This document shows, piece after piece, positions 12,057 to 33,561 of a DNA stretch of 64,000 bases; position 1 is the first letter of the stretch, and every line of letters starts with the position of its first letter. Below the pieces are notes generated by a model that was not told where the DNA came from, made no database searches, and was given only the letters and a program-made list of their open reading frames with translations. A program made the position numbers and the translations under genes. The DNA is taken from contig NZ_CP019329.1 of assembly GCF_001971705.1 (NCBI RefSeq), positions 1 through 64,000 on the forward strand, given 5' to 3'. The DNA is from Natronorubrum daqingense (GTDB taxonomy: Archaea; Halobacteriota; Halobacteria; Halobacteriales; Natrialbaceae).

Positions 12057-12308
12057 ATCCTGAGTCGCATGTTGTGGCTTGCTAAGCTACCCAAGTCGAA
12101 ACTCGAGTCCAGACTTTTCGTATATGGATCGGCTACAAATGAGTGAGAGTCCGTCGGGGGTTACAATCCACTAATTTGGAGTGTAAGAAAACAAGCAGTC
12201 AAACCAAGCACAAGGTATGAAAGCGATCTAGTAATTAAACGCGAAATAAAAACGTGCGAAAAACAGCTACCGCTCAGGAATTTCGAACCCGAAAACTACG
12301 GCTGACCG

Positions 12309-14063
12309 CTACCCCACCCGCAACAGGAACTGACCGAGCACCGTAGCGAACGTCTTCGCGGTCAGCACAGGTGGAGTTCGAACATCCATGTCGATGGCGA
12401 TCTTGATGAGGTAGTCAGTCAACCGCCAAAGGTTGTAGATCAGCGCTGCCAGAACGAAATTCGTGAGTCGAACCCGGTAATCGGTTGAAGACGTCCGCGG
12501 TAGGTACTCCACGATAGTCTTGTACTGGTTCTCAATATCCCATCGCCGTCGATATTGATTCACAACGTGTCTGATCTCACCAGGAGTATCGACGCTGTCA
12601 CGGTTCGTCACAAACACCGCGTAGTTCCCGTCAGCATCGTCATCCCGAACTGGCACATAGAGGAAGTGTGCCGTGTGGTGGAGTTCCCCATCTTTCCAGA
12701 ATTCAACGTCAGGTTCGACCGCCATGTCCGCCTCGGGGTGCGCTTTGATCTTCTCGATGTTTTCATAATCGTCCGTGTACCTCGGAACGGGTGTGGTGTA
12801 CAACAACCCGCGATCTTCGATAGCTGCGTACACATCTTCGCTGTAGAACCCACGATCAAGCAACACCTCATCGAGATCCACAAATTCCTGTGCTCGATCT
12901 AACAACCGCTCGACGAGGTCGGCTTTCGGATACGACGGAGCGTCTTCCTCTTCCCACTTCGAATTCTGCTTGTACGGTTCAACACCGAGTATGATCGGGA
13001 CGTTGTCACCGACGAGCGTGATGGTGGCGTACTTGTACCCTTGTTTCTTCGGATCGTCATCGACGTACCCGTTGACCATTCGCGGGTAATTCGGCTTCGG
13101 GATCTCCTTGTCTCTGTCTTCCCACGGACTCACGGTGAACGGGTCATCCGTGATGTCAATTGCAGCAATGGTTTTCCGGTCATCGAACGGGTCATCGCCA
13201 CGGATCGAGTTGATCACGTTGTCCGTCGCCCCGTCGAACGCTTTCATGACCTCGTTGCGAATCGCATCGATCTTCGGCATACGATTTTCCTCGAACACCG
13301 AGTCCAAGGTGAGCTGCATCGAGTCATCATCGTCAGGCGTGGCGATTAATTTGAGCGCGCGGAGAAGCGTTGAACCGTCGCACGTCAACTCATCGTTGAG
13401 TAGATACCCAATCTCGCCTTCAGAATGCGCACTCCCGTTATTCGAACAGATGCGTGCAACTTGGTCTAAGAGTTCGATATCTTCGTATTGACGGTTCGAC
13501 GCACGACCCGTAACGAACTCTGGGAGCGCGTGTTTCCTGGCTAACTTTACTGATTTGTGTGTTTTCTCGCGTTTGTACTCGCGTTTCGTTTTCTCAGTGT
13601 CTTCCTCGTCCTCTTCATCCGGGGCGGGAGTTGGGACGAGTGCTTCTGAGATAATGCCGTGTTCAACGACTTCTCCTCTGATACCGTTAGCAGCGGCTTC
13701 AATGATGTTCCATGTCGCGTCACTAAAGTTGCATTTCGCGTATGAAAGGTCCTGCTGAGACGGGGCGTCCTCTAACTTCTTGATTTGAAACCCAGCGGCT
13801 TTCACCAAACTGGAACGCTCACTCAACTGGTCTGCGAATTCGCTTTGTGAATACCCGCGAATAAGACGGTACAGGTGGGCTCGAACCATCTCTTCGGTCC
13901 CGAAATCAGCCTTTCCCTGGTCGCGGTGATCGGTGAGGAGGTCTACTGGTATTGAAAGTTTGTTGATGACGTCCCAGAGGTGGTCTTCGCGCTTGCAAAG
14001 CGTCTCTGCGTGTACGACGATGGCTTCAGCGACTGCGGGATCGTCACGCACCATAAAAATCAC
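12309..14063 (-). CDS. large DDE transposase-like protein, catalytic acids kept
   Basis: Protein of 584 aa related to ISH3/IS4-type DDE transposases but longer. The N-terminal 290 residues are helical with an HTH-like start, an acidic linker near 145-160 and a GSAHSEGE block near 210. The RNase H-like core has Asp303 in AAIDIT, Asp403 in LLDRGFY and Glu511 in YRRRWDIENQYK. No terminal inverted repeats or target duplications were found around it, so it may not be part of a simple IS. It lies downstream of a catalytically dead homologue and close to a divergent winged-helix gene. A clear full-length homologue is at 26935-28665. ATG at 14054 is an alternative start. Confidence 0.85.
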   Translation of the reverse strand: MIFMVRDDPAVAEAIVVHAETLCKREDHLWDVINKLSIPVDLLTDHRDQGKADFGTEEMVRAHLYRLIRGYSQSEFADQLSERSSLVKAAGFQIKKLEDAPSQQDLSYAKCNFSDATWNIIEAAANGIRGEVVEHGIISEALVPTPAPDEEDEEDTEKTKREYKREKTHKSVKLARKHALPEFVTGRASNRQYEDIELLDQVARICSNNGSAHSEGEIGYLLNDELTCDGSTLLRALKLIATPDDDDSMQLTLDSVFEENRMPKIDAIRNEVMKAFDGATDNVINSIRGDDPFDDRKTIAAIDITDDPFTVSPWEDRDKEIPKPNYPRMVNGYVDDDPKKQGYKYATITLVGDNVPIILGVEPYKQNSKWEEEDAPSYPKADLVERLLDRAQEFVDLDEVLLDRGFYSEDVYAAIEDRGLLYTTPVPRYTDDYENIEKIKAHPEADMAVEPDVEFWKDGELHHTAHFLYVPVRDDDADGNYAVFVTNRDSVDTPGEIRHVVNQYRRRWDIENQYKTIVEYLPRTSSTDYRVRLTNFVLAALIYNLWRLTDYLIKIAIDMDVRTPPVLTAKTFATVLGQFLLRVG

Positions 14064-14182
14064 CGAACGCGGGGTGGACGAGATGGTTGCACAGCTGGAG
14101 CGGGGAGCGAGTGAAGGTCGCCAGCTGGAGTCGAGTGCGCGTCATGGGCGTCAGGGTACGGAAATGGGTGTGACTGGCCGGG

Positions 14183-15319
14183 TTACCTCGACTCGTGATT
14201 TCGAGTTGGGACTGTGCTGGTGGTGACTCCCCATCGTTTCCGGTGGAGTAAGTGAAGGAACTGGTCGAACGGTAGCTGGCACTGCGCACTCGAATGCTCG
14301 TCAGATTCTCTCAAAAGGTGGTTCGCCAGCGAGTACGCGTTACCCTCGGTTGCTGCGCGCTCGTAATCAGCGCGGGATAACTCCGCTTGAGACACCGCTT
14401 TCGTTTGGAGTCTCGTACGGAGGAGACGGTTGTGAACGTGGGCGTTCCACCGTTTTTCATACGTCTCTGGAACCATATCCGACTCCAGATCCGACTTCGA
14501 CACGTCGATATTTGTTACGAATCCAACGTATTCTTCAGGTGCCGAGTCTTCAGGGACATACACCAGGTTCGTGGTGCATGCCGGCGTGCCGTCCACGAAC
14601 ACATCGACGTCGCGTTCAACAGCGTGCGTAGCGTCGCCACGGGTTTTGACCGTTGAGATTCGTTCACGGTCTCGCGTGGTGAGTCGTGAGCAGATGATGT
14701 ACTCAACGTGTTGTCGCTCGAACTCTGAGATGACGTTTCCAGCGTGAAACGCTCGGGGTGCCAGGAGCGTGTCGATCTCAACGTGTTCTTCGGCTTGCTC
14801 GATGAGCGTCCGGGCGATCTCCGCGTACGTTCGCGGCTCAGATTGAGTTTCGTCGCCTGGTTTGCTCAGCGGTTCGACGGCAAGGACAACTGGGACTGGC
14901 GTGTTGACAGTGGTGATCGTAGCGAAGCGCGGTGTGGGAGTCGGCGTGACTTCCACCTCGCTTGCGTCTCCTGGCGCTGTAGTGGCTTCGAGCCAGTAAT
15001 CAGAATCGAGCCGGGTGATGTCGATTGCGACTGTAATTGACCCCGCGTACGCGTCGTACGTATGTAGTGAATCAACGAGACTCTCAACGGAGGAGGTGAG
15101 TTGGTCAGCAGTCGAATAACGCCGCCCTTCGACTTTTTCTGGGAATGACTCGGTGGAGTCGGTGTTGGATGCTGACTTCTTGGACGCGAGTTTCTCACGA
15201 AGTGTTTCTACGTTCGGAGTCTGTCGTTCAGTGTTCTCACTGAAAATCCGTTCGCAGGTCAGTTCAACTACACGCTGAATGGTGTTTCGGTCGTGGTTTG
15301 AGTGGGTTGTCGGTTTCAT
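14183..15319 (-). CDS. catalytically dead DDE transposase homologue
   Basis: Protein of 378 aa homologous to the core of the 584-aa neighbour. Shared blocks include VAIDIT (Asp100), FATITTVNTPVPVVLAVEP, a YAEIARTLIEQAEEHVEID helix and GFVTNID. The second catalytic Asp is replaced by Pro188 (LAPRAFH in place of LLDRGFY). The catalytic Glu is replaced by His293 (YEKRWNAHVH in place of YRRRWDIENQ). The frame is open from start to stop, and a promoter motif shared with two other island genes lies 46 nt before its ATG, so it looks maintained rather than simply decayed. It may be a domesticated DNA-binding protein. It precedes the 584-aa gene by 119 bp. Confidence 0.8.
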   Translation of the reverse strand: MKPTTHSNHDRNTIQRVVELTCERIFSENTERQTPNVETLREKLASKKSASNTDSTESFPEKVEGRRYSTADQLTSSVESLVDSLHTYDAYAGSITVAIDITRLDSDYWLEATTAPGDASEVEVTPTPTPRFATITTVNTPVPVVLAVEPLSKPGDETQSEPRTYAEIARTLIEQAEEHVEIDTLLAPRAFHAGNVISEFERQHVEYIICSRLTTRDRERISTVKTRGDATHAVERDVDVFVDGTPACTTNLVYVPEDSAPEEYVGFVTNIDVSKSDLESDMVPETYEKRWNAHVHNRLLRTRLQTKAVSQAELSRADYERAATEGNAYSLANHLLRESDEHSSAQCQLPFDQFLHLLHRKRWGVTTSTVPTRNHESR

Positions 15320-15359
15320 CTGTATCTAATTTACTTCGATTTTTGCCTTGGGTTCGCGG

Positions 15360-15390
15360 GTGTGATTTCCGAAATCGGTTCGGAACACAC
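15360..15390 (-). promoter_or_regulatory. shared palindromic motif, site 1
   Basis: On the minus strand the site contains GATTTCGGAAATCACAC. Its core GATTTC-G-GAAATC is palindromic. A larger imperfect inverted repeat (TTCCGAA, 5-nt gap, TTCGGAA, flanked by GTGTG and ACAC) surrounds it. Its ATTTCC base block begins 46 nt upstream of the ATG at 15319. The same core with the same spacing precedes the Cas4-like gene, and a variant precedes orc1. Confidence 0.7.
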
Positions 15391-15452
15391 CAGTAAGGCT
15401 GTTAGAACCGCAGACACATATAAATTACAGAGATTAAACTACTGCATTAAAC

Positions 15453-15473
15453 TGTAGTACGTACAGTACTACA
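15453..15473. promoter_or_regulatory. operator-like inverted repeat before winged-helix gene
   Basis: TGTAGTAC at 15453-15460 and GTACTACA at 15466-15473 form a perfect 8-bp inverted repeat with a 5-nt gap, about 70 bp before the winged-helix start at 15542. Further ACTAC/GTAGT half-sites lie at 15439 and near 15515, and TGTAGT appears again at 16883 before the MarR-like gene. This fits autoregulation by the winged-helix protein, by inference. Confidence 0.55.
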
Positions 15474-15541
15474 CTACGAAGTTCAGTCTAAACAATACCG
15501 CAGTACAACTATTTGTAGTGAGCTTCCCACAACTCGAATAG

Positions 15542-16021
15542 ATGGTCAAGCAAATCAGCGGGTACTTAGAGATGAGTGGCGCAATCGGACTGCTGGTTCA
15601 CCTCAAGTATGAAAGCAGACGATTTAACGAACTGAAAGACCTGGTCGGCGTCAGCCCCTCAACACTCACCACTCGATTAAACGAAGGACGCGACCTCGGA
15701 CTCATCACAACACGAATCGGGGAAGACGAGTACGACCTCGATCAGCGTTCAATTCATCATGAGTACATGATCACCGACCGTGGTGAACTCGTCCTGGAGA
15801 AAATGGACGAGTTCGAAGTCACGTACGCGTACAAACAACTCCGCGAAGCTGAACAAAAACTCGTGGAGGGTAGAGAAAACCTCCGCGTATGGATCGAGGA
15901 TAACGAAGACGAGATCGCCCAAGCAGAAGACGAGCATTCAACGCGTGACAAATACGGTGAAGACGTAACGGAACCTGCTGAAGTGGATGGTGACTACTCA
16001 GAATTTATGGAGAAGGATTGA
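15542..16021 (+). CDS. winged-helix regulator with coiled-coil tail
   Basis: Protein of 159 aa. Residues 1-85 form a winged helix of the HxlR/MarR kind: GYLEMSGAIGLLVHLKYES, a recognition segment VSPSTLTTRLNEGRDLGLI and a wing ending in the ITDRGELVLEKM pattern. Residues 90-125 are a charged coiled coil (YKQLREAEQKLVEGRENL). The rest is acidic. It is transcribed away from the dead transposase homologue across a 222-bp gap holding the motif site and the TGTAGTAC repeat. A protein of the same architecture diverges from the transposase-like gene at 26935. Likely a local repressor of the island, by inference. Confidence 0.8.
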   Translation: MVKQISGYLEMSGAIGLLVHLKYESRRFNELKDLVGVSPSTLTTRLNEGRDLGLITTRIGEDEYDLDQRSIHHEYMITDRGELVLEKMDEFEVTYAYKQLREAEQKLVEGRENLRVWIEDNEDEIAQAEDEHSTRDKYGEDVTEPAEVDGDYSEFMEKD

Positions 16022-16122
16022 ACAGTACGTTTGTTGTGGCCAGTGAGACTTCCACTTAGAGAATGTTGGACCTTTGAACAGAGTGTCTCTGCTGATCAAT
16101 AGCAGTAGGGCGTCTTAACCCC

Positions 16123-16467
16123 TCAAGCGCTGAAAAGGCTGAGTAGGCCCTTCTTCACGAGATTCTCGCCAGTCTCAGTGAGCTCGCCGCTTGCCTTGCC
16201 TGTCCGAATAGCGCCTGGAGGAATCGTATACAATGCCCACAGCATCAGGTATGTTTTGTTGTTGAAGGAAATACCCGAGAGGTGTTCGTCTTTCAGCTCA
16301 GGCGCGTAGTGGTCGTAGTTCTTTGCGCCAGTACCAACACACATCACGGTACACTCCACCGAGCTGAACGGACGGTTTTCGTGAGAGAGAACGATGACAG
16401 GGCGATCATCGTGTGCATTTGTTGGATCATTTGCCCAAGTGACTGTCCCCGTAGGAAATTTCGTCAT
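16123..16467 (-). CDS. PemK/MazF-like toxin
   Basis: Protein of 114 aa starting MTKFPTGTVTWANDPTNAHD. A strand-rich N-terminus with the RPVIVLSHENRPF block matches PemK/MazF-fold proteins, whose typical members are RNA endonucleases. Its ATG overlaps the stop of the MarR-like gene (ATGA at 16464-16467), so translation is probably coupled. The partner acts as antitoxin in this reading. Which RNA is cut cannot be read from sequence. Confidence 0.75.
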   Translation of the reverse strand: MTKFPTGTVTWANDPTNAHDDRPVIVLSHENRPFSSVECTVMCVGTGAKNYDHYAPELKDEHLSGISFNNKTYLMLWALYTIPPGAIRTGKASGELTETGENLVKKGLLSLFSA

Positions 16468-16868
16468 TTCTCAAGCTCTGCCTCTAATTCTGCGATCTCG
16501 GCTTCAATCTCAGCGTCATTAATCCTGTCTGAGGCGGTACCCTCTACATCAGAACGGGGGTGAGGACTTTCTCGGGTCGAGTGGCTAAACATTCGGTTGA
16601 GTTGGTCGAGACTAGCAACATACCGGCGAAGGTCCTCTCGATCCAAAGCGTGGTAGTAACTGTCTTCGGTTTTCCCGATATGCCCGTCCTCGTGAAGACG
16701 TTTAAGAGTAGTCGTAGCGGTGCCGTCGGGGATGTCGAGGTGGTCTCTGACCTCGGAAGGTTTGTATCCGTATTCGGGATTCTTGTAGAGAAACGCTACG
16801 ATGTTGGATTTCGTCGTTCCCGGCGTCAGGTCGATGCCAGAATCGTGCGTGTCAAGATGGATCGGCAT
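16464..16868 (-). CDS. MarR-like winged-helix antitoxin
   Basis: Protein of 134 aa. Residues 15-80 form a winged helix (NIVAFLYKNPEYGYKPSEVRD, then a recognition helix GTATTTLKRLHEDG and a wing with SYYHAL). The last 20 residues are an acidic coiled coil (IEAEIAELEAELEK). It is upstream of and overlaps the MazF-like gene, the usual order of a toxin-antitoxin operon with the DNA-binding antitoxin first. Two TGTAG repeats about 15-25 bp upstream may be its operator or that of the island's other winged-helix protein. Confidence 0.75.
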   Translation of the reverse strand: MPIHLDTHDSGIDLTPGTTKSNIVAFLYKNPEYGYKPSEVRDHLDIPDGTATTTLKRLHEDGHIGKTEDSYYHALDREDLRRYVASLDQLNRMFSHSTRESPHPRSDVEGTASDRINDAEIEAEIAELEAELEK

Positions 16869-16952
16869 TATTTGTAAGCGGTTGTAGTCGATTGTAGGGT
16901 AAAGCAGTTGCGCTTTTATTCATTGAGATCTCAGCCGAATCCTCGAAGTCAG

Positions 16953-18095
16953 CTACCGATAATCAGTGAGTTGATTTTCTGGGGTAGGAACCGTGAGCGT
17001 GGTCAACTCACCGTTTTCGGCGCAGCCAGCACAGAGCGGGAGTTCTGAAGGATCGTCTTTTTCTTCGAGCTCATCCCACGCGTATGTTGACGCGCAAGCT
17101 GTACACCGCCATTCGTAGACGCCTTGCTCATCGATCAGTGAAGGGTACTTGCGGGCGAGGGTCGGAGTGAGTTTCGCGGAGGGGTAGGCATCGAAGTACT
17201 CGGTCAACTGCTGTTTTCGATACTCCGCTAAACCAGGAAGCAACCCGGTGTACCCAACGTCTTGATACGGGGCGTCACCTTCACCGCATCGACCTTGGAA
17301 TGGGCAGGTACTGCACTCCCAGTCAAACACCGGCTTAGCTGGTGGGAGCTCACCATTCTCACGGTAAGCGGTTTGCGAACGCATCCATGCTACGACCCCT
17401 TCATTCCAGAACGTTTCATCGAACGGGACGTGATACGCTTTGATATCTAACGTGTCCCGAGCACCGTAGAGCAGCAATCCGTCTTGAATCGAGTGGTCGT
17501 GCTTTTCATTCAGCGCGTACAGGTACGCGTGGAGTTGGGCTTTGTGATGGGGTTTCGGCCCAGACAGGTACTCTAACGATGACGTCGTTTTAATCTCCGT
17601 CACCAGAAGCGGTTCACCCTCAGCATCAACGATCACCGGATCAGTAACCCCTCTCACCTGGACGGAGTCCTCCTCAGTTTCGATTGTAGTGTCAATCCAC
17701 ATCGAATTCTGCACGTACGTGTCATCGGTCGTAGCCGACTCAAGCAAGTACGGCACGACAATGTCTTCCTCGAATCTTGTCCCGGCCCAGAACAAACCCT
17801 GTGGCGAGCTACCTTCTTTTGGAGCGTTCTCCTTGTAGTAACTGACCTTCCGGTGGCACTGGAGAAGTTTACTCGGGGAGTGCCGCTCGGGTTCAGGCGG
17901 TGGCGACGCACCGTTGAAATACGGTCGCCCTTCCAAGATATTCTGGGTGAACTGTTGCTCTTGATACCACTCGTTGAAACTTTGATTCGAGATTGCATCC
18001 ACCAAGTGCTTCCGAACGAGGTCTTCAGGCCCTCGTTCGATTACTGACGATACGACCACTCCGGGAGGGGAGTCAGGGATTGGTTCATCGCTCAT
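16953..18095 (-). CDS. Cas4-like PD-(D/E)XK nuclease with zinc ribbon
   Basis: Protein of 380 aa. Nuclease core: Asp152 in RGVTDPVIV, Glu167-x-Lys169 in LLVTEIKTT, and Gln187/Tyr191 in AQLHAYLY. Four cysteines (Cys80, Cys261, Cys264, Cys270) are placed like the Fe-S ligands of Cas4 and related RecB-type exonucleases. A C-terminal zinc ribbon (CTAC then CAGC) is an added domain. The ATG at 18095 is preferred over one at 18131 because it places the shared upstream motif at the same 46-nt distance as at site 1. No CRISPR genes are nearby, so the role is probably in element replication, recombination or defence. The stop of orc1 lies 75 bp upstream. Confidence 0.85.
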   Translation of the reverse strand: MSDEPIPDSPPGVVVSSVIERGPEDLVRKHLVDAISNQSFNEWYQEQQFTQNILEGRPYFNGASPPPEPERHSPSKLLQCHRKVSYYKENAPKEGSSPQGLFWAGTRFEEDIVVPYLLESATTDDTYVQNSMWIDTTIETEEDSVQVRGVTDPVIVDAEGEPLLVTEIKTTSSLEYLSGPKPHHKAQLHAYLYALNEKHDHSIQDGLLLYGARDTLDIKAYHVPFDETFWNEGVVAWMRSQTAYRENGELPPAKPVFDWECSTCPFQGRCGEGDAPYQDVGYTGLLPGLAEYRKQQLTEYFDAYPSAKLTPTLARKYPSLIDEQGVYEWRCTACASTYAWDELEEKDDPSELPLCAGCAENGELTTLTVPTPENQLTDYR

Positions 18096-18135
18096 AGCGT
18101 ACTGATAAAGAGATTCTATGGTAATGGGCAAGCGC

Positions 18136-18153
18136 GTGTGATTTCCGAAATCA
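18136..18153 (-). promoter_or_regulatory. shared palindromic motif, site 2
   Basis: On the minus strand it reads GATTTCGGAAATCACAC, identical over 17 bases to site 1. Its ATTTCC block begins 46 nt upstream of the ATG at 18095, the same distance as at site 1. This decides the start of the Cas4-like gene and argues for a common regulator. Confidence 0.7.
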
Positions 18154-18170
18154 TAGACAGAGAGTGATAA

Positions 18171-19178
18171 TCACGGAGAATACGGATGATATGTTCGCCC
18201 CTTCGTACTTCCCTTTGAGATGATCAAATTGTAGTGCTCTAGCTTTGTGAGGTAGTTCCGCACCATACGCTGCGTTTTTGGGTTCTCGACCGCCTCACTG
18301 TAAATCTCAAACAGCGTACTGGGAGCGATCTCGCCGTAGTCCAGAATCGTATCGTACAGCACACGCTGGTGATCGGTCAGTTTGTCGAGCGACCGTTGTT
18401 CGATCTCTGCTTTCGCTTCCGGAACCACACCTCGAATTACCTCTGACGAAACCTCATTGTAACCGGCCTGGTTGGCTGTCTGTACTGCTTTTCGAAGAAT
18501 CCCGATTGCCGCGCGAGCGTCACCGGCTGCCATATCCGCGATGAGTCGTAGTTCATCCGGACTAACGACATCGGATTTGAGGCCCCAGCGAACACGATCA
18601 CGGAGGATAGCGACAAGAGCGTCATTCCCGTATGGATTGAACCTGGCTCGTGTACAGACCTGGAAGCGACTATTCAACCGGTTATCTAACGATGCGAAGA
18701 GATCCTGCTCGCTGTTGGCGATTAGGATCATTGTGAGTCCACGAATCCGGTACAACTCGTACAGGAGCTGTTTGTCTTCGAGTTGGTCTACTTCATCGAG
18801 GATCACAATATACGGCGACCCATCGTATTCCCGAAGGCGCTCCAATAGGACGTCTTTCGGTGTTGATTGTCGGTGAACGTCGAATGTGTGGTTGATGCCG
18901 TCGAGGATTCGGTACAGTGTTTTGAAGCGGCTGTAGTCTTCCCAGCAGTTCACGTACTGGTAGTTCAGGTCAACGACACTCTCGCGGAGCTGCTCAACGA
19001 GAAATTTGGCGAGGCAGGTTTTCCCAACACCAGATGGACCGAATAGGAACGCTGAATCGGCATTGTCTCCGTGTGTTATCGGGTTGAGCGCAGCTGAAAG
19101 CGTATTGAGTTCTGCGTCGCGGTGCTTGACCTCGGTCGGGATGAATTCGGGTTGGAGAACCCGTGCATCTGTAATCAT
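18171..19178 (-). CDS. orc1: Orc1/Cdc6 replication initiator
   Basis: AAA+ ATPase of 335 aa, archaeal initiator type that binds and opens replication origins. Walker A is GPSGVGKT at 47-54, Walker B is IVILDEVD with Asp128-Glu129. Sensor-2-like GDARAAIGILRKA and a C-terminal winged helix (residues about 255-335, ending YHPYSP) complete the family layout. It starts at the ATG at 19178; longer readings upstream look noncoding. It is a divergent, accessory-type member as found on plasmids and integrated elements. The shared motif 47 nt before its start links its expression to the Cas4-like and dead-transposase genes. Confidence 0.9.
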   Translation of the reverse strand: MITDARVLQPEFIPTEVKHRDAELNTLSAALNPITHGDNADSAFLFGPSGVGKTCLAKFLVEQLRESVVDLNYQYVNCWEDYSRFKTLYRILDGINHTFDVHRQSTPKDVLLERLREYDGSPYIVILDEVDQLEDKQLLYELYRIRGLTMILIANSEQDLFASLDNRLNSRFQVCTRARFNPYGNDALVAILRDRVRWGLKSDVVSPDELRLIADMAAGDARAAIGILRKAVQTANQAGYNEVSSEVIRGVVPEAKAEIEQRSLDKLTDHQRVLYDTILDYGEIAPSTLFEIYSEAVENPKTQRMVRNYLTKLEHYNLIISKGSTKGRTYHPYSP

Positions 19179-19219
19179 GGGTTGCGTCGACACAGTCCTT
19201 GGGTGTAATAAGTGGAAGG

Positions 19220-19244
19220 GTGTTATTTCCGAATTACCGGACAC
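19220..19244 (-). promoter_or_regulatory. shared palindromic motif, site 3 (variant)
   Basis: On the minus strand the core is AATTCGGAAATAACACC, matching sites 1 and 2 at most bases, with an outer GTGTC/GACAC-like flank. The ATTTCC block begins 47 nt before the orc1 ATG at 19178. The half toward the gene is best conserved. Confidence 0.6.
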
Positions 19245-19355
19245 TTCCTTAGAATCATTCGAGTATATTTGACTAATCATTCTGTAAATTCTGGCGAACC
19301 TAAAACAACGCACACCTCTATTGGTCTCAGGGTCGTTTGAGTATGTAGATTGGTT

Positions 19356-20066
19356 GTGCCATCGACCGTACTCGTTCCAGTCAGCCTTCCAGATCCAGAA
19401 CCCATCCCCGAGTCACTCGTAAGGCTGCTGTCTCAAACGAACGTGCTCGTGTTGGGCATCAATAAGGTTCCCGATCAAACCGTTCCTGATCAAGCTCGTG
19501 AAAATGATCACGGTGAGAGCAAAGAACGCATAAACAACATCGCTTCGAAATTCAGGGAAAGCGGTTCGAATGTCACCTCAAAAGTCATATTCACGCATAA
19601 TCGGCGTGATACCATTGATCGCGTCACGAAAGAGGGCGAGTGTAACGTAATTCTCGTTCCAAATCATGCTGGACGGATGGAGTGGATTCTGGTTCCTCTT
19701 CGTGGAAATACAAATATTGATCGAATCTCTGACTTCGTGGCTGATCTAACGACGGATGAACTTCGAAGAGTAACCCTTCTGCACGTGACCGATTCAGAGT
19801 CTGATCAGGAGGGGAAACCACTCCTGACAGAAGCGCGTCAGAAATTAGTTGATAAGGGAGTTGACGAGCAGTTCATAGAGACGGACCTCATTACCTCGCA
19901 CGAGGTGGTGGAAACGATTACTGAGCAGGCAAAGAATTATGATACAATCGTCATTGGGGGAACAGAGCCATCGCTTTTAGACCGGGTTTTCGGTGATATT
20001 CCCCACCGAATCAGCCAAGAAACAGGATGTCCTGTATTCATCATTCCACCAGAAACAAAGTCGTAG
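19356..20066 (+). CDS. universal stress protein (UspA family)
   Basis: Protein of about 236 aa with a divergent N-terminal half and a C-terminal UspA-like half. The latter ends with the ATP-type loop VIGGTEPSLLDRVFGDIPHRISQ and CPVFII. A GTG start at 19356 is likely; TTG at 19350 is possible and no ATG is available. It converges with the APC-Usp transporter gene and belongs to the ion-stress cluster by content. Confidence 0.78.
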   Translation: MPSTVLVPVSLPDPEPIPESLVRLLSQTNVLVLGINKVPDQTVPDQARENDHGESKERINNIASKFRESGSNVTSKVIFTHNRRDTIDRVTKEGECNVILVPNHAGRMEWILVPLRGNTNIDRISDFVADLTTDELRRVTLLHVTDSESDQEGKPLLTEARQKLVDKGVDEQFIETDLITSHEVVETITEQAKNYDTIVIGGTEPSLLDRVFGDIPHRISQETGCPVFIIPPETKS

Positions 20067-20108
20067 GCCGAGCGTATTCCCTCGTCTTCGAACAGAGAAC
20101 CGTCTCAC

Positions 20109-22406
20109 TTATGCTGTTTGAGTAGACTCTCCGCCTAACCGCTGAACGAGCGCTTGCCGGAACGTTCGCGGCGCTCGGTTTTCCCCACGAGCCATCACAA
20201 CGGTTCCACTGCTTTCTTGGACGATTGTCTGCGGGATTGATCCGTAGAGTGCTTGCGCGACGGTGCTCGTTCCCGTTGCGCCGACACAAACAGTATCGTA
20301 CTTTCGAATCTCCTCAACGAGCGTTTGACGCACATCATCACTCACAATGACCGATTCTTCGTATTCCTTGGGGTCAAGGTCGGCTTGAGTGGCGACCTCT
20401 GAGATGGTTTCCTGGCCGATCTCGTTCGGGTCACTTCCGTCTTCGTTTTCGTCTGGCTCGGGTTGTACGTTCAGCAACGTTAGCGTGCTTTCGGGAAACG
20501 CTCGATGCAATTCGCCTGCTCGTCGTGCAGAGACCGGAGCATGAGGGCCACCTCCTGCAAGTGTGACGATGCGTTTCGGCCTTTCACTTGGATTTTTCAC
20601 TAGCGTTACATCACACGAAGCGCGTTCGAGCACCGGATCAATCGTCGAACCGAAGAGTACATCCCGTTTCCTTCGCTCACCGGCCCATCCGAGTAGCACG
20701 TGGTTTGCATCCTCTTCGGAAAGCACATTAAGCAGTATCTCTCCAGCATCTCGTCCGACAATCGCGCGCGTTCTAATTCCAACATCAAGGTCTTCGGCAA
20801 TCTCGCGCGCGTTTTCAAGAAGCGCTTGCTGCGTTTCGACTCGCTCTTCTTCGAACTCGATCTGGGCAGGGGACATCTGCGGTGGGACCTCGATTACGTT
20901 CACCGCGACGATCTCAGCATCCACGTCTTGGCTTGCAGCACTCGCAGCGGCATACGTAATGAGCGGGCGTTCCGTTTCTGGATTCGAGACTGGAACGACG
21001 ATCCGATAGGTCGAATCCGTTGTCGTTTCGTCTTCCGTCGGGGCAACGGCTTCACCAATGAGCGTCGTCGAGAGTGCTTGATCCTTCGCGTAGAATGCAT
21101 ACCAGAGGATACCGATGAGGACGATTCCGAGTGAAATCGCCTGTACTTCCCACGCCATCTGGAGCATGACGCCCACGCAGGCGATGAACCCGAGGATTGG
21201 AACCGCTGGATAAAGTGCAGACGGAATGAGAAAGTCCGGTTCGTATTCCTCGGGATTGGCTCGTCGTAGGACGACCACCGCAATGTGTACCAGCGCGTAC
21301 GTCACGAGGAACATGAACGCTGCAACGTCGGCAAGCGTTGCAATAGGGAGTGGGCTGGCAATGAGGAGAAGAATAACGACACCAGTTGCGATGATTGCAC
21401 GGTACGGCGTCCTGTATCGATCATGGATCTCGTTGAGCCAGTTGGTGAGGATCTTATCGCGCCCCATGGCGAAATTGACACGTGCGGCAGAGAGGATCGA
21501 CGCGTTTGCTGAGGAAATTGTCGCTAAAATCGCGCCGATGATCATAATACCGGAGCCGATGACGGCGAATTCCACCGTGAAGCCCGCAATAGTTAGGGAA
21601 CCAAACACGCCAGCTGCTACCGCAGCGACGTCGGCAACCGGAACGTCCGACGCTGCAAGGTCGGGAACTGGAAGCAGTCCCGTGCTCACGAGCATGACGA
21701 GAACGTAGAGGATAGTCGGCGTCACCACTGCCGCAATCATTGACAGCGGGAGATTGCGACCAGGATCTTTGATCTCTTCTGCGCTGGTCGCAATCACCTC
21801 GAACCCGATGAACGTGACGAATACTGTGCCTGCGGTCGCTCCAACAGCTGCCCATCCTTCTCCTGCGGTAAACGGCGTGAGAAGGTCAGGGTTGACGCTC
21901 ACGAGCCCGACAGTGATGAAGACTAAAATTAGGCCAACCAGTGAAATGACGATCACGTTCTGAAGTGAACCGGTTTCCTTGACGCCCCGATAGTTGATCG
22001 CTACGAGCAACGAGGCCATGATGAGGGCTGCTAAAACCACGAGAAGTGCGTCTGACGGTTGATTGAGCAGGTATTGGCCGAATCCGAGCATGTAGAACGC
22101 CGTTGCGAACATCAGTCCGCCCCACATTCCCCAGCCGACAATCGTGCCGAAGAAACTGCCGAGGGCGTGGTTCACGTAGTAGTAGCTCCCTCCGGCTTTC
22201 GGCATTCCGGTTGCCAGTTCTGAGAGTGAAAGGGCTGCGAGCAGCGCGACGATACCGCCGATCACGAATGATACCATGCTGGCGGGTCCGGCGCTTTCGG
22301 CAACGATTCCGGGGAGGACGAAAATCCCAGCCCCGATCATCGTGCCGAGACCGAGCGTGTACGCTTCGAGGAAGCCAAGATCACGGGCGAGTTCCTGATC
22401 AGACAT
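20109..22406 (-). CDS. APC-family amino acid permease fused to two Usp domains
   Basis: Protein of 765 aa. Residues 1-440 form a 12-segment amino acid/polyamine transporter (first segment LGLGTMIGAGIFVLPG, typical APC signature). Residues about 465-605 and 620-750 are two UspA-like domains, the first with GWAGERRKRDVLFGSTIDPVL and the second with GATGTSTVAQALYGSIPQTI. Such fusions are known in haloarchaea and are thought to tie transport to an ATP- or stress-sensing cytoplasmic module. The Lrp-TrkA_C regulator is transcribed in the same direction 148 bp upstream. Substrate is not determinable here. Confidence 0.9.
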   Translation of the reverse strand: MSDQELARDLGFLEAYTLGLGTMIGAGIFVLPGIVAESAGPASMVSFVIGGIVALLAALSLSELATGMPKAGGSYYYVNHALGSFFGTIVGWGMWGGLMFATAFYMLGFGQYLLNQPSDALLVVLAALIMASLLVAINYRGVKETGSLQNVIVISLVGLILVFITVGLVSVNPDLLTPFTAGEGWAAVGATAGTVFVTFIGFEVIATSAEEIKDPGRNLPLSMIAAVVTPTILYVLVMLVSTGLLPVPDLAASDVPVADVAAVAAGVFGSLTIAGFTVEFAVIGSGIMIIGAILATISSANASILSAARVNFAMGRDKILTNWLNEIHDRYRTPYRAIIATGVVILLLIASPLPIATLADVAAFMFLVTYALVHIAVVVLRRANPEEYEPDFLIPSALYPAVPILGFIACVGVMLQMAWEVQAISLGIVLIGILWYAFYAKDQALSTTLIGEAVAPTEDETTTDSTYRIVVPVSNPETERPLITYAAASAASQDVDAEIVAVNVIEVPPQMSPAQIEFEEERVETQQALLENAREIAEDLDVGIRTRAIVGRDAGEILLNVLSEEDANHVLLGWAGERRKRDVLFGSTIDPVLERASCDVTLVKNPSERPKRIVTLAGGGPHAPVSARRAGELHRAFPESTLTLLNVQPEPDENEDGSDPNEIGQETISEVATQADLDPKEYEESVIVSDDVRQTLVEEIRKYDTVCVGATGTSTVAQALYGSIPQTIVQESSGTVVMARGENRAPRTFRQALVQRLGGESTQTA

Positions 22407-22554
22407 TAATTACGTACACCTCGGACGTGACCAGTGGTTCATTAGGTTGATAACAGGGTTGTTCGTTCCCGATCCCTGAATCTCATTCATATATGGGTTA
22501 CTGATACGCCCCTCAATAACTGTATTGAATCTTGTTTCGCTAACCCAAAATATT

Positions 22555-23298
22555 TCACGGAGTGTCTTCTTGAAATGCTTTGAGCATTCCTTCTGTGATA
22601 CCCTCTCTCGAAAGGACAGTGAGTAAATCCCCGGATTTGATTTCGGTTTTCCCTCGCGGGGTGAGAACAGTATCGTCACGCTCGATAGAGACGATCAACA
22701 GTTCGTCATCGAGTGTGCCATTTTCTCCGGCCTGTTCGAGGGTTCTATTTGCAATTGGTGCGCCCTCCGGAACAGTAAGTTCGATTACTTCTGAACCACC
22801 AGTGAGGCTAATGAAGTCTGAGAATCGTTGTTCCATTTCGGTTGGTCCATACGGATGGTAGCCCTGATAATCATCAGACCGAACGAGGTCCTCATCGACG
22901 ATTTCGAGCCCGAGAGAGACGATCTCCTGGGAGACTTCCTGAAGATCATTCGTGTTCTCTCCAACTGCAAGAATTCGGAGGTTCTCACGACCTGTGAGCA
23001 ACTCTCGTACGTTGACTACTCCGGAAATTGTTCGAATCTGTTGGGCAAGCCGCTGACGCTCATCGACTGGAGCTGTGCAGACGTACAAGCTCGTTAGCAG
23101 TCCGTCTGCCCGTTCAAAATCGATGTTTGCGTGATACCCTCTGATGATGCCTGCGTCTTCGAGTTGTTGAATGCGATTCCGAATGGTGCCTGGTGAAACG
23201 CCCACTTCATCGGCAATCATTGGCGCAGATGTGTTTCGAGCATCTTCCATGAGTGCGTGGATAATTCGCTTGTTCACTTCATCCAGCCGAATGCTCAT
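22555..23298 (-). CDS. Lrp/AsnC regulator fused to TrkA_C domain
   Basis: Protein of 247 aa. Residues 1-60 are an Lrp-type helix-turn-helix (DEVNKRIIHALMEDARNTSA, then GVSPGTIRNRIQQLE). Residues 65-140 are the Lrp ligand-binding region. Residues about 165-245 are an RCK_C/TrkA_C domain (VIELTVPEGAPIANRTL, then LLTVLSRE) like that of TrkA. It sits between the APC-Usp transporter and the uspA-trkA-trkH operon, and its TrkA_C region resembles the C-terminus of the TrkA protein nearby. It probably senses an ion-linked ligand and controls these transporters. Confidence 0.88.
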   Translation of the reverse strand: MSIRLDEVNKRIIHALMEDARNTSAPMIADEVGVSPGTIRNRIQQLEDAGIIRGYHANIDFERADGLLTSLYVCTAPVDERQRLAQQIRTISGVVNVRELLTGRENLRILAVGENTNDLQEVSQEIVSLGLEIVDEDLVRSDDYQGYHPYGPTEMEQRFSDFISLTGGSEVIELTVPEGAPIANRTLEQAGENGTLDDELLIVSIERDDTVLTPRGKTEIKSGDLLTVLSREGITEGMLKAFQEDTP

Positions 23299-23542
23299 GC
23301 TGATACGGTAGCAGACCTGTATAGAAGAGTTCTGGCTTTCTCATTCTCGAAACAGCGCTCCATCATACCCCAAACACTGCCCCATCGAATGCTTAATTAT
23401 CCCTGCCCCATTTTGATGGATGCGTAATTGAGAACACTTATATTGTCGAATCAATAATTAGCCAGTGATAGACACATGACGCTACCTACGAACGAGACGA
23501 ACAGGACGCCAGTCATTCGGTTTTCGTCGGGAGGAGAGAGAA

Positions 23543-23983
23543 ATGGCTAGCTCGATCCTGAAGCACATCGTCGTTCCGGTAGCAAACGAAGACGATGCAA
23601 CTGAGACATGTAAGGCGCTCGACTCGTATATTGATGATGAGACTGAAATCATCACCATAGTACACGTAATCGAAAAGACGCCGGGATACATGGACAAAGC
23701 TCCGCTAGAGGCCCGTCAGCAGCAAGCAGAGCGCGTGTTCTCGATCATCGAGGACTATTTCCAAACCGGTCCGGTTATTCAACGCGAACTCCGGTACGGG
23801 ACAGATGTGGTTGACGAAATTCTCGATGCAGCGGAAGAACACGACGCGACAGCAATCGGGTTTACTCACCGAGAAAGTACCCGACTGCAACGTCTCCTAT
23901 CAGGGAAAGGATCGTACCGTCTAACCACCGAAAGTGAGCAACCAGTCGTTGTATTCTCTCGAATCGATTCGACAGATCAGTAA
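23543..23983 (+). CDS. universal stress protein, first gene of trk operon
   Basis: Single-domain UspA protein of 146 aa starting MASSILKHIVVPVANEDDAT. The C-terminal signature is AIGFTHRESTRLQRLLSGKGSYRL, a variant of the Usp ATP-binding loop, followed by QPVVVFSR. trkA starts 14 bp after its stop, and trkA overlaps trkH, so the three form one operon. Usp proteins beside Trk subunits are a recurrent archaeal arrangement and may regulate uptake. An AT-rich stretch CTTATATTGTCG near 23435 is a candidate promoter. Confidence 0.9.
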   Translation: MASSILKHIVVPVANEDDATETCKALDSYIDDETEIITIVHVIEKTPGYMDKAPLEARQQQAERVFSIIEDYFQTGPVIQRELRYGTDVVDEILDAAEEHDATAIGFTHRESTRLQRLLSGKGSYRLTTESEQPVVVFSRIDSTDQ

Positions 23984-23997
23984 CGAGGCGAATTCAT

Positions 23998-24669
23998 ATG
24001 TACATTATCATCGTCGGCGCAGGTAACATTGGGTCAAATCTGATCGAACGGGCAGTAACAGACGGTCACGACGTGGTCGTAATCGAACGTGATGAAGAGC
24101 GAGCGACCGCCGCTTCAGCAGCGTATGACTGTCTCGTCCTGAACGCCGATGCAACGAACAACGGGACACTCAGAGAAGCGAATATTGACCGAGCGGACGC
24201 GATTATTTCCACCACAGATGTGGACGCAGTCAATATCATGGTGATGCTCCTCGCACAGGAACACGACGTGCCGAATCGTGTCAGCGTCGTTCACGACCCC
24301 GAACATCTCCCCGTGTTCGAGAAAATCGGCGTGACCATGATTGAAAATCCACAACGCCTGATCGCAGACTATCTCTACCACTCCGTGCAGTATCCGGGGG
24401 TCAGCGATTTCATCGAGTTAGATGATAAAACAGAGTTAGTCGAACTGACCGTCTCCGAAGACGCACCGATGAGTGGTCAACCACTCAATACGGCACAGGA
24501 GTCCGGAAACCTTCCCGAAGGCTGTCTCGTCGTGGCGCTCATGCGGGACGGCGAAATCCGAGCGCCGCGCGGTGACACGACGATCCGAGCAGGCGATAAA
24601 GTGACCGTCTTCACTGATGATACCGCATTGACCGATGCTGTGGCTGCGTTCACCGACAATCAATCATGA
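23998..24669 (+). CDS. trkA: Trk potassium uptake regulatory subunit TrkA
   Basis: Protein of 223 aa with an N-terminal RCK_N Rossmann domain (IIVGAGNIGSNLIERA, then the acidic VIERDEER that binds NAD ribose) and a C-terminal RCK_C domain from about 140 (LVELTVSEDAPMSGQPL). TrkA is the cytoplasmic NAD/ATP-binding gating subunit of the TrkH channel. The stop overlaps the trkH start by 4 bp (ATGA). Single-repeat size is normal for archaea. Confidence 0.94.
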   Translation: MYIIIVGAGNIGSNLIERAVTDGHDVVVIERDEERATAASAAYDCLVLNADATNNGTLREANIDRADAIISTTDVDAVNIMVMLLAQEHDVPNRVSVVHDPEHLPVFEKIGVTMIENPQRLIADYLYHSVQYPGVSDFIELDDKTELVELTVSEDAPMSGQPLNTAQESGNLPEGCLVVALMRDGEIRAPRGDTTIRAGDKVTVFTDDTALTDAVAAFTDNQS

Positions 24670-26216
24670 GGATCCAGTATCGGACAGTCGGGCGAGACGT
24701 CGGTCGCATCCTTCAGGTTGTCTCGCTCATGCTGGTTGTATCGATTCTAGTTGCGGTGGTCAACCGCGAGTTCTACGCCGCACCAGCGTTCGCCATTTCT
24801 GCCGTGATTATGGGCGGTGTCGGCATTGCGCTCGCGCGGTGGTTTGCTGACGCACCGTCACCAGGGAAGCGCGAGGCGATGGTTACTGCTGCCAGTGCGT
24901 GGGCAACAGTCGGTGTCTTCGGTGGACTCCCGTTTCTGCTCATCGCGTGGACAATTGCAGCCGATCCATTCCCTGCATGGACGAATACACCCTCAATGAA
25001 CGAGACCATCGCCGTGTTTCTGCATCCACTTGACGGAATCTTCGAGAGCATTAGCGGATTCACCAGCACTGGGCTGACGATGGCCGCTATTGAAGATGAC
25101 CTTCCGCGGTCACTTCACTGGTGGCGCTCGTTCACCGAGTGGATCGGTGGCGTTGGCGTCATCGTGTTAACCGTTGCAATCCTTGCACGTCCCGGAAGCG
25201 GGTCGCTTACGCTCTTTCAGAGCGAGGCACGGTCGGAGAAGATCCACCCGAGCATCGTTTCGACCGTCAAAGAGATCTGGAAGATCTACCTCGGGTTTAC
25301 GCTTGCAGCAATCGCCCTGTTTCTCGCCGCCGGAATGCCACTCTGGGGAGCGATCAATCACGCGATGACCGCCATCGCTACCGGTGGATTCTCGATTCAC
25401 GCAGATTCGATAGGCCATTACGGCAGTCCTCTCATCGAATACGCCGTCATTCCAGTAATGATCGCAGGCAGTATCGCGTTCCCTATACACTATCTCATCC
25501 TTAAGGGCGAGTTGCGGAATTTCTACGCGGATATTCAGACTCGCTGGGTGTTCATCTGGTTCACCATCGGCTCACTCCTGCTCGTCGGACTCTTGTCGCT
25601 CGGTGGCCAGTACGATACGTTCGAGGAGACGTTCCGAATCGGCCTGTTCCAATTCGTATCTGCGACATCGAACACGGGATTCGGAACCACGACAATCGGT
25701 GGAGGAACCGAACGATTCTGGGCCGCTGGAGCAACGCTATTCATCTGTCTCGGAATGCTAACTGGTGCAGCTGCCGGATCAACAGTCGGCGGGCTGAAGC
25801 TCATTCGCGTGATCACACTCCTCAAAGGAACTATCTGGCAGATTCAGAGCGTCTTCGCACCTGATAACGCAATCCGACACTTGCGAATAGGAAAGCGAAC
25901 GCTCAGCGAGCAGCAAATCAATCGAGAGTACACAGAGGCAGCGGTCGTACTCATCCTCTGGATTGTTTTCCTCATCATCGGGATTGCCGTTTTGCTTTGG
26001 ACGCTCTCCCCGGATCATCCCGTGGAGTACGTCATTTTTGACGTGATGAGCGCACAGAGCAACGTCGGGCTGGATGCGGGAATTACCGGGCCAGATATGC
26101 CCGCCACTGCGAAAGCGATGTTGATTATCAATATGTGGATTGGCCGTCTAGAGATCATCCCAGTCGCAGTGTTACTCGGTGTGACCTTCAGGCGTCTTAA
26201 GGTGTATGCGGAGTAA
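24666..26216 (+). CDS. trkH: Trk potassium channel subunit TrkH
   Basis: Integral membrane protein of 516 aa, the pore subunit of the Trk system for potassium uptake needed in salt-in osmoadaptation. Pore-loop segments with selectivity glycines are visible: SISGFTSTGLTMAAIE, MTAIATGGFSIHADSIG, SATSNTGFGTTTIGGG and MSAQSNVGLDAGITG. Translation is coupled to trkA by the overlap. Length fits the family. Confidence 0.94.
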   Translation: MRIQYRTVGRDVGRILQVVSLMLVVSILVAVVNREFYAAPAFAISAVIMGGVGIALARWFADAPSPGKREAMVTAASAWATVGVFGGLPFLLIAWTIAADPFPAWTNTPSMNETIAVFLHPLDGIFESISGFTSTGLTMAAIEDDLPRSLHWWRSFTEWIGGVGVIVLTVAILARPGSGSLTLFQSEARSEKIHPSIVSTVKEIWKIYLGFTLAAIALFLAAGMPLWGAINHAMTAIATGGFSIHADSIGHYGSPLIEYAVIPVMIAGSIAFPIHYLILKGELRNFYADIQTRWVFIWFTIGSLLLVGLLSLGGQYDTFEETFRIGLFQFVSATSNTGFGTTTIGGGTERFWAAGATLFICLGMLTGAAAGSTVGGLKLIRVITLLKGTIWQIQSVFAPDNAIRHLRIGKRTLSEQQINREYTEAAVVLILWIVFLIIGIAVLLWTLSPDHPVEYVIFDVMSAQSNVGLDAGITGPDMPATAKAMLIINMWIGRLEIIPVAVLLGVTFRRLKVYAE

Positions 26217-26292
26217 CGATCCGGGATTAATACTAAGAATCTACTTCCGGTGATCGGCTTAATACGCAAAAGAGCATATGTTAGTGTGTACC

Positions 26293-26496
26293 ATGAGGAC
26301 ACCTCGTCTCCGCGATCCCCGTTCATTCATGGATATCTTTCCTGTGTTGATGTTTACCGTAGCAGTGGTATTTCTCGTGCTAACGTTCACAGATAGCGAC
26401 CTAATTAGACTCGAAATGTTACTTTTCTTTGGGGTGGTCATAATTTGGGTTCTATGGGCAGTCAACAATATTCTCCAGCACTCTCGTCGATATTGA
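26293..26496 (+). CDS. small two-helix membrane protein
   Basis: Protein of about 67 aa starting MRTPRLRDPRSFMDIFPVLM, or 72 aa from the ATG at 26278. Two hydrophobic segments (IFPVLMFTVAVVFLVLTF and MLLFFGVVIIWVLWAVNNI) are separated by a short polar loop. It follows trkH on the same strand by 76 bp and could be co-transcribed. No family is recognised; an auxiliary role for transport is only a guess. Confidence 0.6.
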   Translation: MRTPRLRDPRSFMDIFPVLMFTVAVVFLVLTFTDSDLIRLEMLLFFGVVIIWVLWAVNNILQHSRRY

Positions 26497-26934
26497 ATCA
26501 CTAAACAAAATTGGAGATATTGAGAGCTTTGATCATCGACCTCGTCCTGACTGGTTGTGAGATTGTTTCGGTGGCGTGAGTCGATCCTGCCCCGAAACAA
26601 CTCCTCTTGATATGATAAATTCCCAATAGTTCTCCTGTGGGCCGTGCCGAGATAGGCTGAAAACCAGGATTTTATATTTCGACTCCATTATTAGTGATTT
26701 CATTTGTAGGTTTCCAAACGCCGAATCTCTGCAACTCCACATTCTTCGCGTGCTTATAAACCTACAAATGAAACTCGGAAATTCACGAGTTAGTGACTAC
26801 AAATCCGGTGCGAAAATCGGACGAGACCGAATTAGCAACTACGGACCATTCATAGATATGATAGTTAGTTCGAAATCCGCAAAAACCGACAGCGCAACCG
26901 CTACCGAATCAGTGAACCCAGAGTGAGAAAAGCG
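26497..26934. other. gap with a long inverted repeat
   Basis: No protein-coding gene is supported in this 438-bp stretch. The notable structure is the 16-bp inverted repeat at 26698-26773, listed separately. The part before the transposase-like gene stop is AT-rich. Confidence 0.5.
26698..26773. repeat. 16-bp perfect inverted repeat, 44-nt spacer
   Basis: TTTCATTTGTAGGTTT at 26698-26713 is matched by AAACCTACAAATGAAA at 26758-26773. The right arm is preceded by TTATA. It could be a large transcription-associated hairpin, the end of an unrecognised mobile element or a recombinase site. It lies about 160 bp beyond the 3' end of the transposase-like gene. Confidence 0.75.
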
Positions 26935-28665: not shown

Positions 28666-28962
28666 TGAGCCACCTCCAGGACAAGCTGCTCTGTTTTTGG
28701 GCTGCGGTCGACCAGATACTGGAGTGATCGTGTGTAGAAGCGTCTGCTGTGAAGGAGCGAATATCAGTGTAGGATAGAGTGAAAATATGATTGTGCATTA
28801 GTGCCGGTTGTCTGCTCTTGGCTTGTGGTGGGGGACATATGAAGAGGTATGCGTGCTATACTTGGAGAATTGATTGTGGCCAGAATACGGTGTAAGTCAA
28901 GAATCAGTATGAATCGGATATCGGTTGGAGTTATAGTAGTAGACTGAGAACAGGTAGGTACG

Positions 28963-29511
28963 ATGGGATTGGACGAACTCGAGTCGTTTCTTCGGAAGAA
29001 GGGAGCGGCGGAACTTATCACGGAGATCGGAACGGGAACAGCGACGTTCAACGCACTCGTCGACGCGGTTGCGGTAAGTGGATCGACGGTCTCCTCGCGA
29101 CTCTCTGAAGGCGTTGAGCGTGAGGTGTTCACGGTGAGTCACTGGCCAACCGAGCATGGGACAGAGAAGCGGTATGAGCTCACCATCCTCGGGCGTCGTG
29201 TGTATGATTGGGCAGTGCAGACGGAGTTCGAGCGGAAGATTCGAGAGCTCCGGCGGGTTCGGCAGGAACGTGAGACGACGTTCGAGCAGCTGATCGGGAA
29301 AATCAATCGGGATATGGAGATTCGCAAAATGGTCACCGATTCGGACCCAATGCAAGATCAGGACATTAACCTCCCTGAAGGCACGTCGTTCGTGCCGAAG
29401 ATGCCGTCAGAAGACGAGCTTCGTAAAGCTAAATACGAACGGATGGAAGCCAATCTCAAGCCAGTCGAAGAAACCGAAGATACCGATGAAATAGGAGAGA
29501 ACAGCGAGTAA
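28963..29511 (+). CDS. winged-helix regulator with coiled coil, second locus
   Basis: Protein of 182 aa starting MGLDELESFLRKKGAAELIT. Residues 5-95 are a winged helix (recognition region VSGSTVSSRLSEGVEREVF, wing ending TEKRYELTILGRRVYDW). Residues about 98-135 are a coiled coil (EFERKIRELRRVRQERETTF). The tail is acidic. The layout equals that of the 159-aa protein at 15542, and both diverge from a DDE transposase-like gene. This supports a conserved two-gene module in which this protein probably controls the transposase-like partner. Confidence 0.8.
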   Translation: MGLDELESFLRKKGAAELITEIGTGTATFNALVDAVAVSGSTVSSRLSEGVEREVFTVSHWPTEHGTEKRYELTILGRRVYDWAVQTEFERKIRELRRVRQERETTFEQLIGKINRDMEIRKMVTDSDPMQDQDINLPEGTSFVPKMPSEDELRKAKYERMEANLKPVEETEDTDEIGENSE

Positions 29512-30614: not shown

Positions 30615-30865
30615 TCGAACGTCGCTCATTCTGAGAGATTGTAGCCCGACGGAGTAGTAATCTCACTGATATTCCGATCCTTCGAGAGTAGCGCTGTAGA
30701 GCTCAATTCTGGACCAAGGGATGAAAAGTTGAAGGGTTGTGAATCGCCTTGGGACTTGACCCGTGGCATTCCCTTCGATACCTCTGTAAAATTCCCTCGC
30801 TCGTTCGACGATTTCGAGATTCGCACCAATCATCTCTTAGTTATCCATGCATAACTTCGTCTAAG

Positions 30866-31588: not shown

Positions 31589-31590
31589 CC

Positions 31591-32127: not shown

Positions 32128-32173
32128 CGCTACGGTATGATCTGTAACATAATGCTCGGAAATTGGACTCAAA

Positions 32174-32848: not shown

Positions 32849-32999
32849 GGCTCAGTGAGGGTGTCGATTTTCCCTTCTAGAATCGAACCAGAGATGGTAA
32901 CTCAATTCGGCTAAATGGTGAAATAGAGCATCGCATCTTCGTACCCTATGACCACACGCACAACGCCAGAATTGACCGCCAGCGCTACATCAGCGCTCT

Positions 33000-33132: not shown

Positions 33133-33177
33133 ATTGCACCACCTTATGGCGATTCAACACGGCCCCATAGATAGTTT

Positions 33178-33555: not shown

Positions 33556-33561
33556 ACGCAT

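Follow-up and report, generated by a model that had tools for sequence, protein, structure and literature searches.

The gene cluster described here lies in a 64,000-nucleotide stretch of Natronorubrum daqingense DNA (contig NZ_CP019329.1, positions 1-64,000; hereafter the window). The haloarchaeal genome that contains it, as contig C3, is 3.84 Mb in size. The cluster is probably a transposition module belonging to a haloarchaeal transposon that is mobile and, by analogy, Tn7-like; in it, a DDE transposase gene is accompanied by a catalytically dead homologue, a divergent winged-helix gene, a Cas4-like nuclease gene and an orc1/cdc6-type gene. This element, designated E1, extends from 12110 to 26731 (14,622 bp). 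The initial annotation had proposed a domesticated recombination or defence system and had seen no insertion-sequence ends around the transposase, its homologue and the winged-helix gene. The best reading is that the locus is neither domesticated nor a defence system, and ends were located at 12110 and 26731, far outside those three genes, the transposase gene being part of a longer, multi-gene element.

Borders and movement of the element

The right end (RE; 12110-12139, forward strand) reads CAGACTTTTCG...CTACAAA inward and lies about 200 bp beyond the stop of the 584-aa transposase gene, and the left end (LE; 26703-26731, reverse strand) reads CAGAGATTCGGC...CTACAAA. Together they form imperfect inverted repeats of about 30 bp that finish inward in CTACAAA. 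The conserved end motif was derived by comparing copies of a 2.5-kb insertion sequence (IS), described below, and was then used to locate the LE. In a search for ends tight around the cdc6-to-transposase genes, none of the inverted repeats within 250 bp of cdc6 exceeded the level expected by chance; it failed because the LE sits past the cargo. A short unit made up of the winged-helix gene, dead copy and transposase and ending in 16021-16123 was also considered and rejected, no end sequence being found there.

Movement of the module is indicated by a comparison with Natronococcus sp. A-GB1, in which the counterpart of window positions 12110-19239, from cdc6 to past the transposase, is 96.2% identical while both flanks are unrelated. 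On the RE side, homology with A-GB1 stops exactly at the end of the element, and five of five other Natronococcus genomes, devoid of the block, resume homology with A-GB1 at the exact junction base (7807 of L005). The LE of E1 has an orthologue in A-GB1 with a matching target duplication: the A-GB1 LE, on contig C34, is preceded by CGCAATC, and the RE, on contig C7, is followed by the same 7-mer. In genomes G093 and G088 this site is present once, with flanks colinear across the junction and a 7-bp overlap, as in an unoccupied site. Since CGCAATC stands at both ends and is single-copy in these two relatives, the A-GB1 module is, on this comparison, the result of a separate transposition that duplicated a 7-bp target. 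Duplications were likewise found around the element of genome G251 (17.7 kb, GGGAACT on both sides, its contig being counted as circular) and, as CGAGTC, around the pair that E1 forms with its neighbour in the window.

These ends and duplications, together with sites left unoccupied in relatives and movement across genera, make it very improbable that the cluster is a domesticated, immobile system for recombination or defence, even though it is present in a single copy in the window's genome and comprises a toxin-like gene and a Cas4-like nuclease. With regard to defence, PADLOC returned no match for the active or the dead DDE protein and only weak helix-turn-helix (HTH) matches for the winged-helix protein; none of these three proteins had a convincing match, and the module as a whole gave only generic Cas4, AAA+ and HTH matches.

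Genes of the module and their recurrence

The 584-aa protein (12309-14063, reverse strand) is, according to its domain matches, a DDE transposase of the IS4/ISH3 kind. Its open frame was matched by Pfam DDE_Tnp_1 (E 5.5e-8) and, as its best DDE match, by the NCBIfam ISH3 transposase model NF033541 (E 3e-23; 82.3 bits, under the 225 cut-off), and alignment bore out the intact triad already proposed in the initial annotation (D303, D403 and E511), which falls in an RNase-H-type transposase domain. The divergent winged-helix gene was also correctly recognised; it encodes an HxlR-type protein of 159 aa with a charged tail (15542-16021, forward strand), and occupies the same place and orientation in relatives. 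A TTTGTAG motif resembling the transposon ends lies at 15506-15518, between this gene and the dead partner, and is also found in A-GB1; it is possibly a site of self-regulation.

The Cas4-like PD-(D/E)XK nuclease (392 aa, 16953-18131, reverse strand) bears a C-terminal cysteine-rich tail and matches Pfam PDDEXK_1 (4e-8), TIGR00372 cas4 (4e-11), PADLOC Cas4 (5e-14) and the PDB structure 4ic1. The Orc1/Cdc6-type AAA+ ATPase (18171-19178, reverse strand) was assigned a start, MITDARVLQPEF, that is common to relatives, the longest open reading frame starting at 19313. It contains the Orc1/Cdc6 AAA+ domain and matches TIGR02928 at 6e-55 (186.6 bits, above the 181.3 cut-off), compared with a weak match to the TnsC model (5.6e-6). 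A conserved promoter, consisting of a TTCGGAA box followed by CTTCCA(C/T)TTATTA, precedes it (19203-19235, reverse strand), and the same motif is found upstream of most module cdc6 genes, often in the tandem form TTCGGAA-(N)-TTCGGAA followed by CTTCCATTTATTA. No such tandem was found ahead of the other cdc6 genes in the window's genome. Two internal passengers separate the winged-helix and Cas4-like genes: a PemK/MazF-like gene (16123-16467, reverse strand), recognised through a weak match and missing from most related modules, and a MarR-like gene (16464-16868, reverse strand), identified by a domain match and probably encoding an antitoxin or regulator.

The loci that document recurrence of this module were gathered by searching with its Cas4-like and Cdc6 proteins, and rates therefore weigh more than counts. 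This Cdc6 clade was found near a DDE gene at 23 loci examined, in several haloarchaeal families, with an intact Cas4-like gene at 13 of them. A DDE homologue was nearby at 14 of the 17 cdc6 loci of at least 59% identity, and this cdc6 lay within about 3 kb of 10 of the 11 Cas4-like hits of at least 51%, versus one of the eight weaker hits examined. The order cdc6, Cas4-like gene, divergent winged helix and transposase is shared by genomes G331, G355, G164, G132, G334 and G251, and is rearranged in G255 and G236; the module is also carried by plasmids of Halococcus dombrowskii (NZ_CP095007), archaeon DL31 (CP002989) and Halobacterium sp. GN101 (NZ_EU080936). The elements of G164 (9.4 kb) and G132 (11.4 kb) share no more than the initial 80 bp at the LE and the part running from cdc6 through the RE, their cargo being different. 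Both have, like E1, imperfect ends of about 30 bp with CTACAAA, and the end matches are weaker in G072 (6.0 kb) and GN101 (8.4 kb). The module transposases do not form one clade, but are spread over three or more lineages among which plain IS transposases are interspersed; because one ATPase clade is thus repeatedly paired with different transposases, a functional link between Cdc6 and transposase is favoured.

From a mechanistic point of view, the 584-aa protein would cut and join the ends in a cut-and-paste reaction, and the winged-helix protein would repress the divergent transposase operon. We infer that the Cdc6-type AAA+ ATPase may regulate the transposase or pick the target, analogously to TnsC in Tn7, that the Cas4-like nuclease may process ends or gaps, thus replacing TnsA or host repair, and that the dead DDE protein may be a non-catalytic subunit of the same complex, tuning or positioning its active counterpart. 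A bolder proposal, possible but tentative, is that archaea would have invented the Tn7 plan on their own: an IS4/ISH3-type transposase would have come to depend on Orc1/Cdc6 for its target and on the Cas4-like protein for DNA processing, with the dead paralogue as an obligate subunit, structural or regulatory, in one branch.

The machinery might also be reduced to the winged-helix gene and transposase, with or without the dead copy, cdc6 and cas4 being ordinary cargo without a role in transposition, derived from a replication origin or a plasmid-maintenance piece. Such a view would be consistent with the match of this Cdc6 to real replication initiators, with the transposases or integrases found near 40% of haloarchaeal orc/cdc6 origins (PMC3528665), and with the movement of related elements (the neighbouring transposon E2 and the 2.5-kb IS) that are devoid of cdc6 and cas4. 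Divergence from A-GB1 along 12110-19239 is moreover a mosaic, dS being about 0.02 over cas4-MarR-PemK and about 0.17 over winged helix-dead copy-transposase, which suggests that part of the module was exchanged recently. We nevertheless consider this explanation quite unlikely: the same cdc6 clade is found beside the transposase, in a fixed place, in several families and with at least three transposase lineages, whereas other cargo varies, and the module cdc6 genes share a dedicated promoter motif. Origin-type G-runs are also few upstream of the module cdc6, a test which discriminates poorly as several host cdc6 genes are without them too.

The catalytically inactive partner

The gene upstream of the active transposase encodes a 378-aa homologue (14183-15319, reverse strand) in an open frame, alignable with the 584-aa protein over 297 aa (26% identity, E 1e-23) and matched by the ISH3 model at 4e-6. 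The catalytic columns D303, D403 and E511 of the active protein correspond to D100, P188 and H294. The initial annotation had thus correctly described the homology, the open frame and Pro188, but its His293 is really His294, one position further on. The homology starts near the catalytic domain, and the N-terminal region of some 260 residues of the active protein is missing, which disfavours a role as simple DNA-binding competitor. A predicted structure of the dead protein had a mean pLDDT of 39 and was not used.

That the dead copy is a recurrent partner of the active one is supported. In the window, A-GB1 and G251, i.e., in three genera and two families, it has the winged-helix gene on one side and the active transposase gene on the other, and its triads (DPH, DSN and DSA, respectively) reveal inactivation at the same two positions in all three. 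A fourth element, in G058, has an orthologue of 500 aa with an intact DDE triad, and these four sequences form one clade with a support of 100/99. After removal of the window and A-GB1 sequences, a rebuilt tree again paired G251 with G058 at 100/99, both being long-branched. In the collection scan, a close relative of the dead copy was found in one other genome, that of Natronococcus sp. A-GB1. The C-terminal region of the intact G058 partner (L036:5599-7101) was seen by eye to resemble the N-terminal region of the active transposase, so that its domain order appears swapped relative to the latter.

Selection on the dead gene was evaluated by comparing the window with A-GB1. Its dN/dS (0.34-0.48) is under the neutral value yet about five times that of the active gene (0.07-0.09) at equal dS, and this excess is significant (P 6e-6). 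Such values could be those of a decaying duplicate under relaxed selection, carried along as the element moves as a unit, and the lack of a stop codon in 89 substitutions departs only slightly from neutral expectation (P 0.066), so that taken alone it is weak evidence against decay. However, nonsynonymous changes in the dead gene were rarer than in a neutral simulation (P 0.0024). The codons of the two lost sites are CCC and TCC (P/S188) and CAC and AAC (H/N294) in the window and A-GB1, respectively; as both pairs are one step apart, inactivation is probably older than the split between these copies, and the frame is still open. In another family, too, an orthologue lacks both of these catalytic residues yet has an open frame. 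Decay is, in our opinion, rather doubtful, and the dead copy is probably a functional, weakly constrained subunit. The initial annotation had named a unique pseudogene under relaxed selection as a finding that would undo its proposal. By its phylogeny the dead partner is not a unique pseudogene, belonging as it does to a four-element clade; constraint on it is weak, with a dN/dS below neutral.

Several observations weigh against the transposition-module reading and the roles proposed within it. The LE and RE of E1 resemble each other only loosely, and the matching 6-bp duplication in the window brackets the pair of E1 and its neighbour, not E1 alone. The LE and RE of A-GB1 are on two separate contigs, the tips of C34 and C7 mapping side by side on one relative's sequence. 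Ends were not found for G331, G355, G334, Halococcus dombrowskii and DL31. Archaeal Cdc6 structures match the ATPase far better (3e-20) than TnsC does. The Cas4-like gene is missing at about nine cdc6-DDE loci, so that the core of the module consists of Cdc6, the winged helix and the transposase; since plain IS relatives also move without either gene, neither cdc6 nor cas4 would be strictly needed for transposition. As to the dead partner, it is known from four elements only, on long branches, and it evolves faster than neighbouring genes.

Related systems and neighbouring elements

The plan of E1 and its relatives, with a PD-(D/E)XK nuclease, a DDE transposase and an AAA+ ATPase at one end of a cargo transposon, is shared with Tn7-like elements, and defence and metal-resistance genes are carried as cargo in both groups. 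E1 is Tn7-like in plan but not a member of that group, because its transposase, its nuclease and, on balance, its ATPase belong to other families. Indeed, the DDE protein matches IS4-group models only and is not a TnsB, the nuclease matches Cas4/PDDEXK_1 and not TnsA, the ATPase is of the Orc1/Cdc6 type, and no TnsD/TniQ was recognised. The target duplication of Tn7 is 5 bp, as against 6-7 bp here. Short inverted ends and short target duplications are common to haloarchaeal IS of the ISH3/IS4 group, from which the present elements differ in the sub-threshold ISH3 score of their transposase, its size (580-600 aa, with a large N-terminal region) and their multi-gene content. Casposons are likewise archaeal self-mobile elements, some with a Cas4-like nuclease, but they use a Cas1 integrase and carry PolB, whereas a DDE transposase and Cdc6 are found here; no Cas1-like match was obtained among the E1 module genes scanned.

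In the nearest published account, haloarchaeal orc/cdc6 genes of the oriCa type were described as having transposases nearby that may mobilise them, the transposase being read as a passing vehicle for an origin (PMC3528665); neither Cas4 nor a fixed module was found in that work, nor were the ends of an element or a dead partner. Solo-Cas4 and MGE-Cas4, Cas4 family nucleases encoded outside CRISPR loci, some of them in mobile elements, were also described (PMC5704561), and a term search of that article found neither Cdc6 nor Halobacteria mentioned, nor a transposon of this kind. No published description of the module was found in a literature search which largely missed subscription journals, and novelty is not thereby proven.

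To our knowledge, it is mainly in bacteria that large DDE transposons of several genes, equipped with an AAA+ regulator and a nuclease, have been recognised (Tn7 and its kin). If our interpretation is true, a haloarchaeal counterpart built from Orc1/Cdc6, Cas4-like and IS4-type parts would mean that evolution arrived at this plan more than once. It would also assign a use to some of the surplus orc/cdc6 and Cas4 genes, of which haloarchaea have many, and would explain how genes for metal resistance, potassium uptake and defence spread in this group. The dead partner would offer a natural test of the role of a non-catalytic transposase subunit.

The cargo of E1 (19350-26216) comprises, according to a domain scan, a Usp protein, a Usp-fused amino-acid permease and an AsnC-HTH/TrkA_C protein, the remainder being TrkA- and TrkH-like proteins of the potassium-uptake type, as read from the sequence. 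Proteins resembling DpdA, PglZ and HerA are part of the cargo of the G251 element (L154, L225, L096), and a protein closely matching PDC-S54, a candidate defence protein, is encoded between its cdc6 and Cas4-like gene.

A 6-bp spacer, CAACTC (26732-26737), separates E1 from a second transposon, E2 (26738-45374, reverse strand; left end at 45346-45374, reverse strand), both features being placed by end mapping. E2 contains a related DDE transposase gene (26935-28665) and a winged-helix gene (28963-29511), and its cargo consists of two heavy-metal P-type ATPases, a regulator of the iron-dependent-repressor type and an SBF-family transporter; no cdc6 or Cas4-like gene was recognised in it. In G047, E2 is found by itself, with the 7-bp duplication TGTCGGT on both sides. 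The hexamer CGAGTC flanks the E1-E2 pair at 12104-12109 and 45375-45380, which suggests that both last moved together as one composite. The joined flanks of the pair, which would represent its unoccupied site, had no intact match in 125 genomes. A single 33-kb element (12110-45374) as the basic unit would fit this outer duplication but is ruled out by other evidence: since the LE at 26731 is orthologous to that of A-GB1 and E2 occurs alone in G047, these are two tandem elements.

A related transposase is also encoded by the multicopy 2.5-kb IS, whose identical copies have the ends CACAACTTCGGGAT...CTACAAA and duplications of 6-7 bp, e.g., GACCGC and GTAGTT. In G072 (L111), a 2.5-kb IS with a related transposase of 586 aa is inserted exactly at the RE of a cdc6-type element, and a second copy adjoins the first. 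Outside the transposons, the region 45747-51554 of the window, partly in a low-GC island, encodes a tyrosine-recombinase-like protein, recognised by eye and without a Pfam match, followed by a type IIG-like restriction-methyltransferase of 1204 aa.

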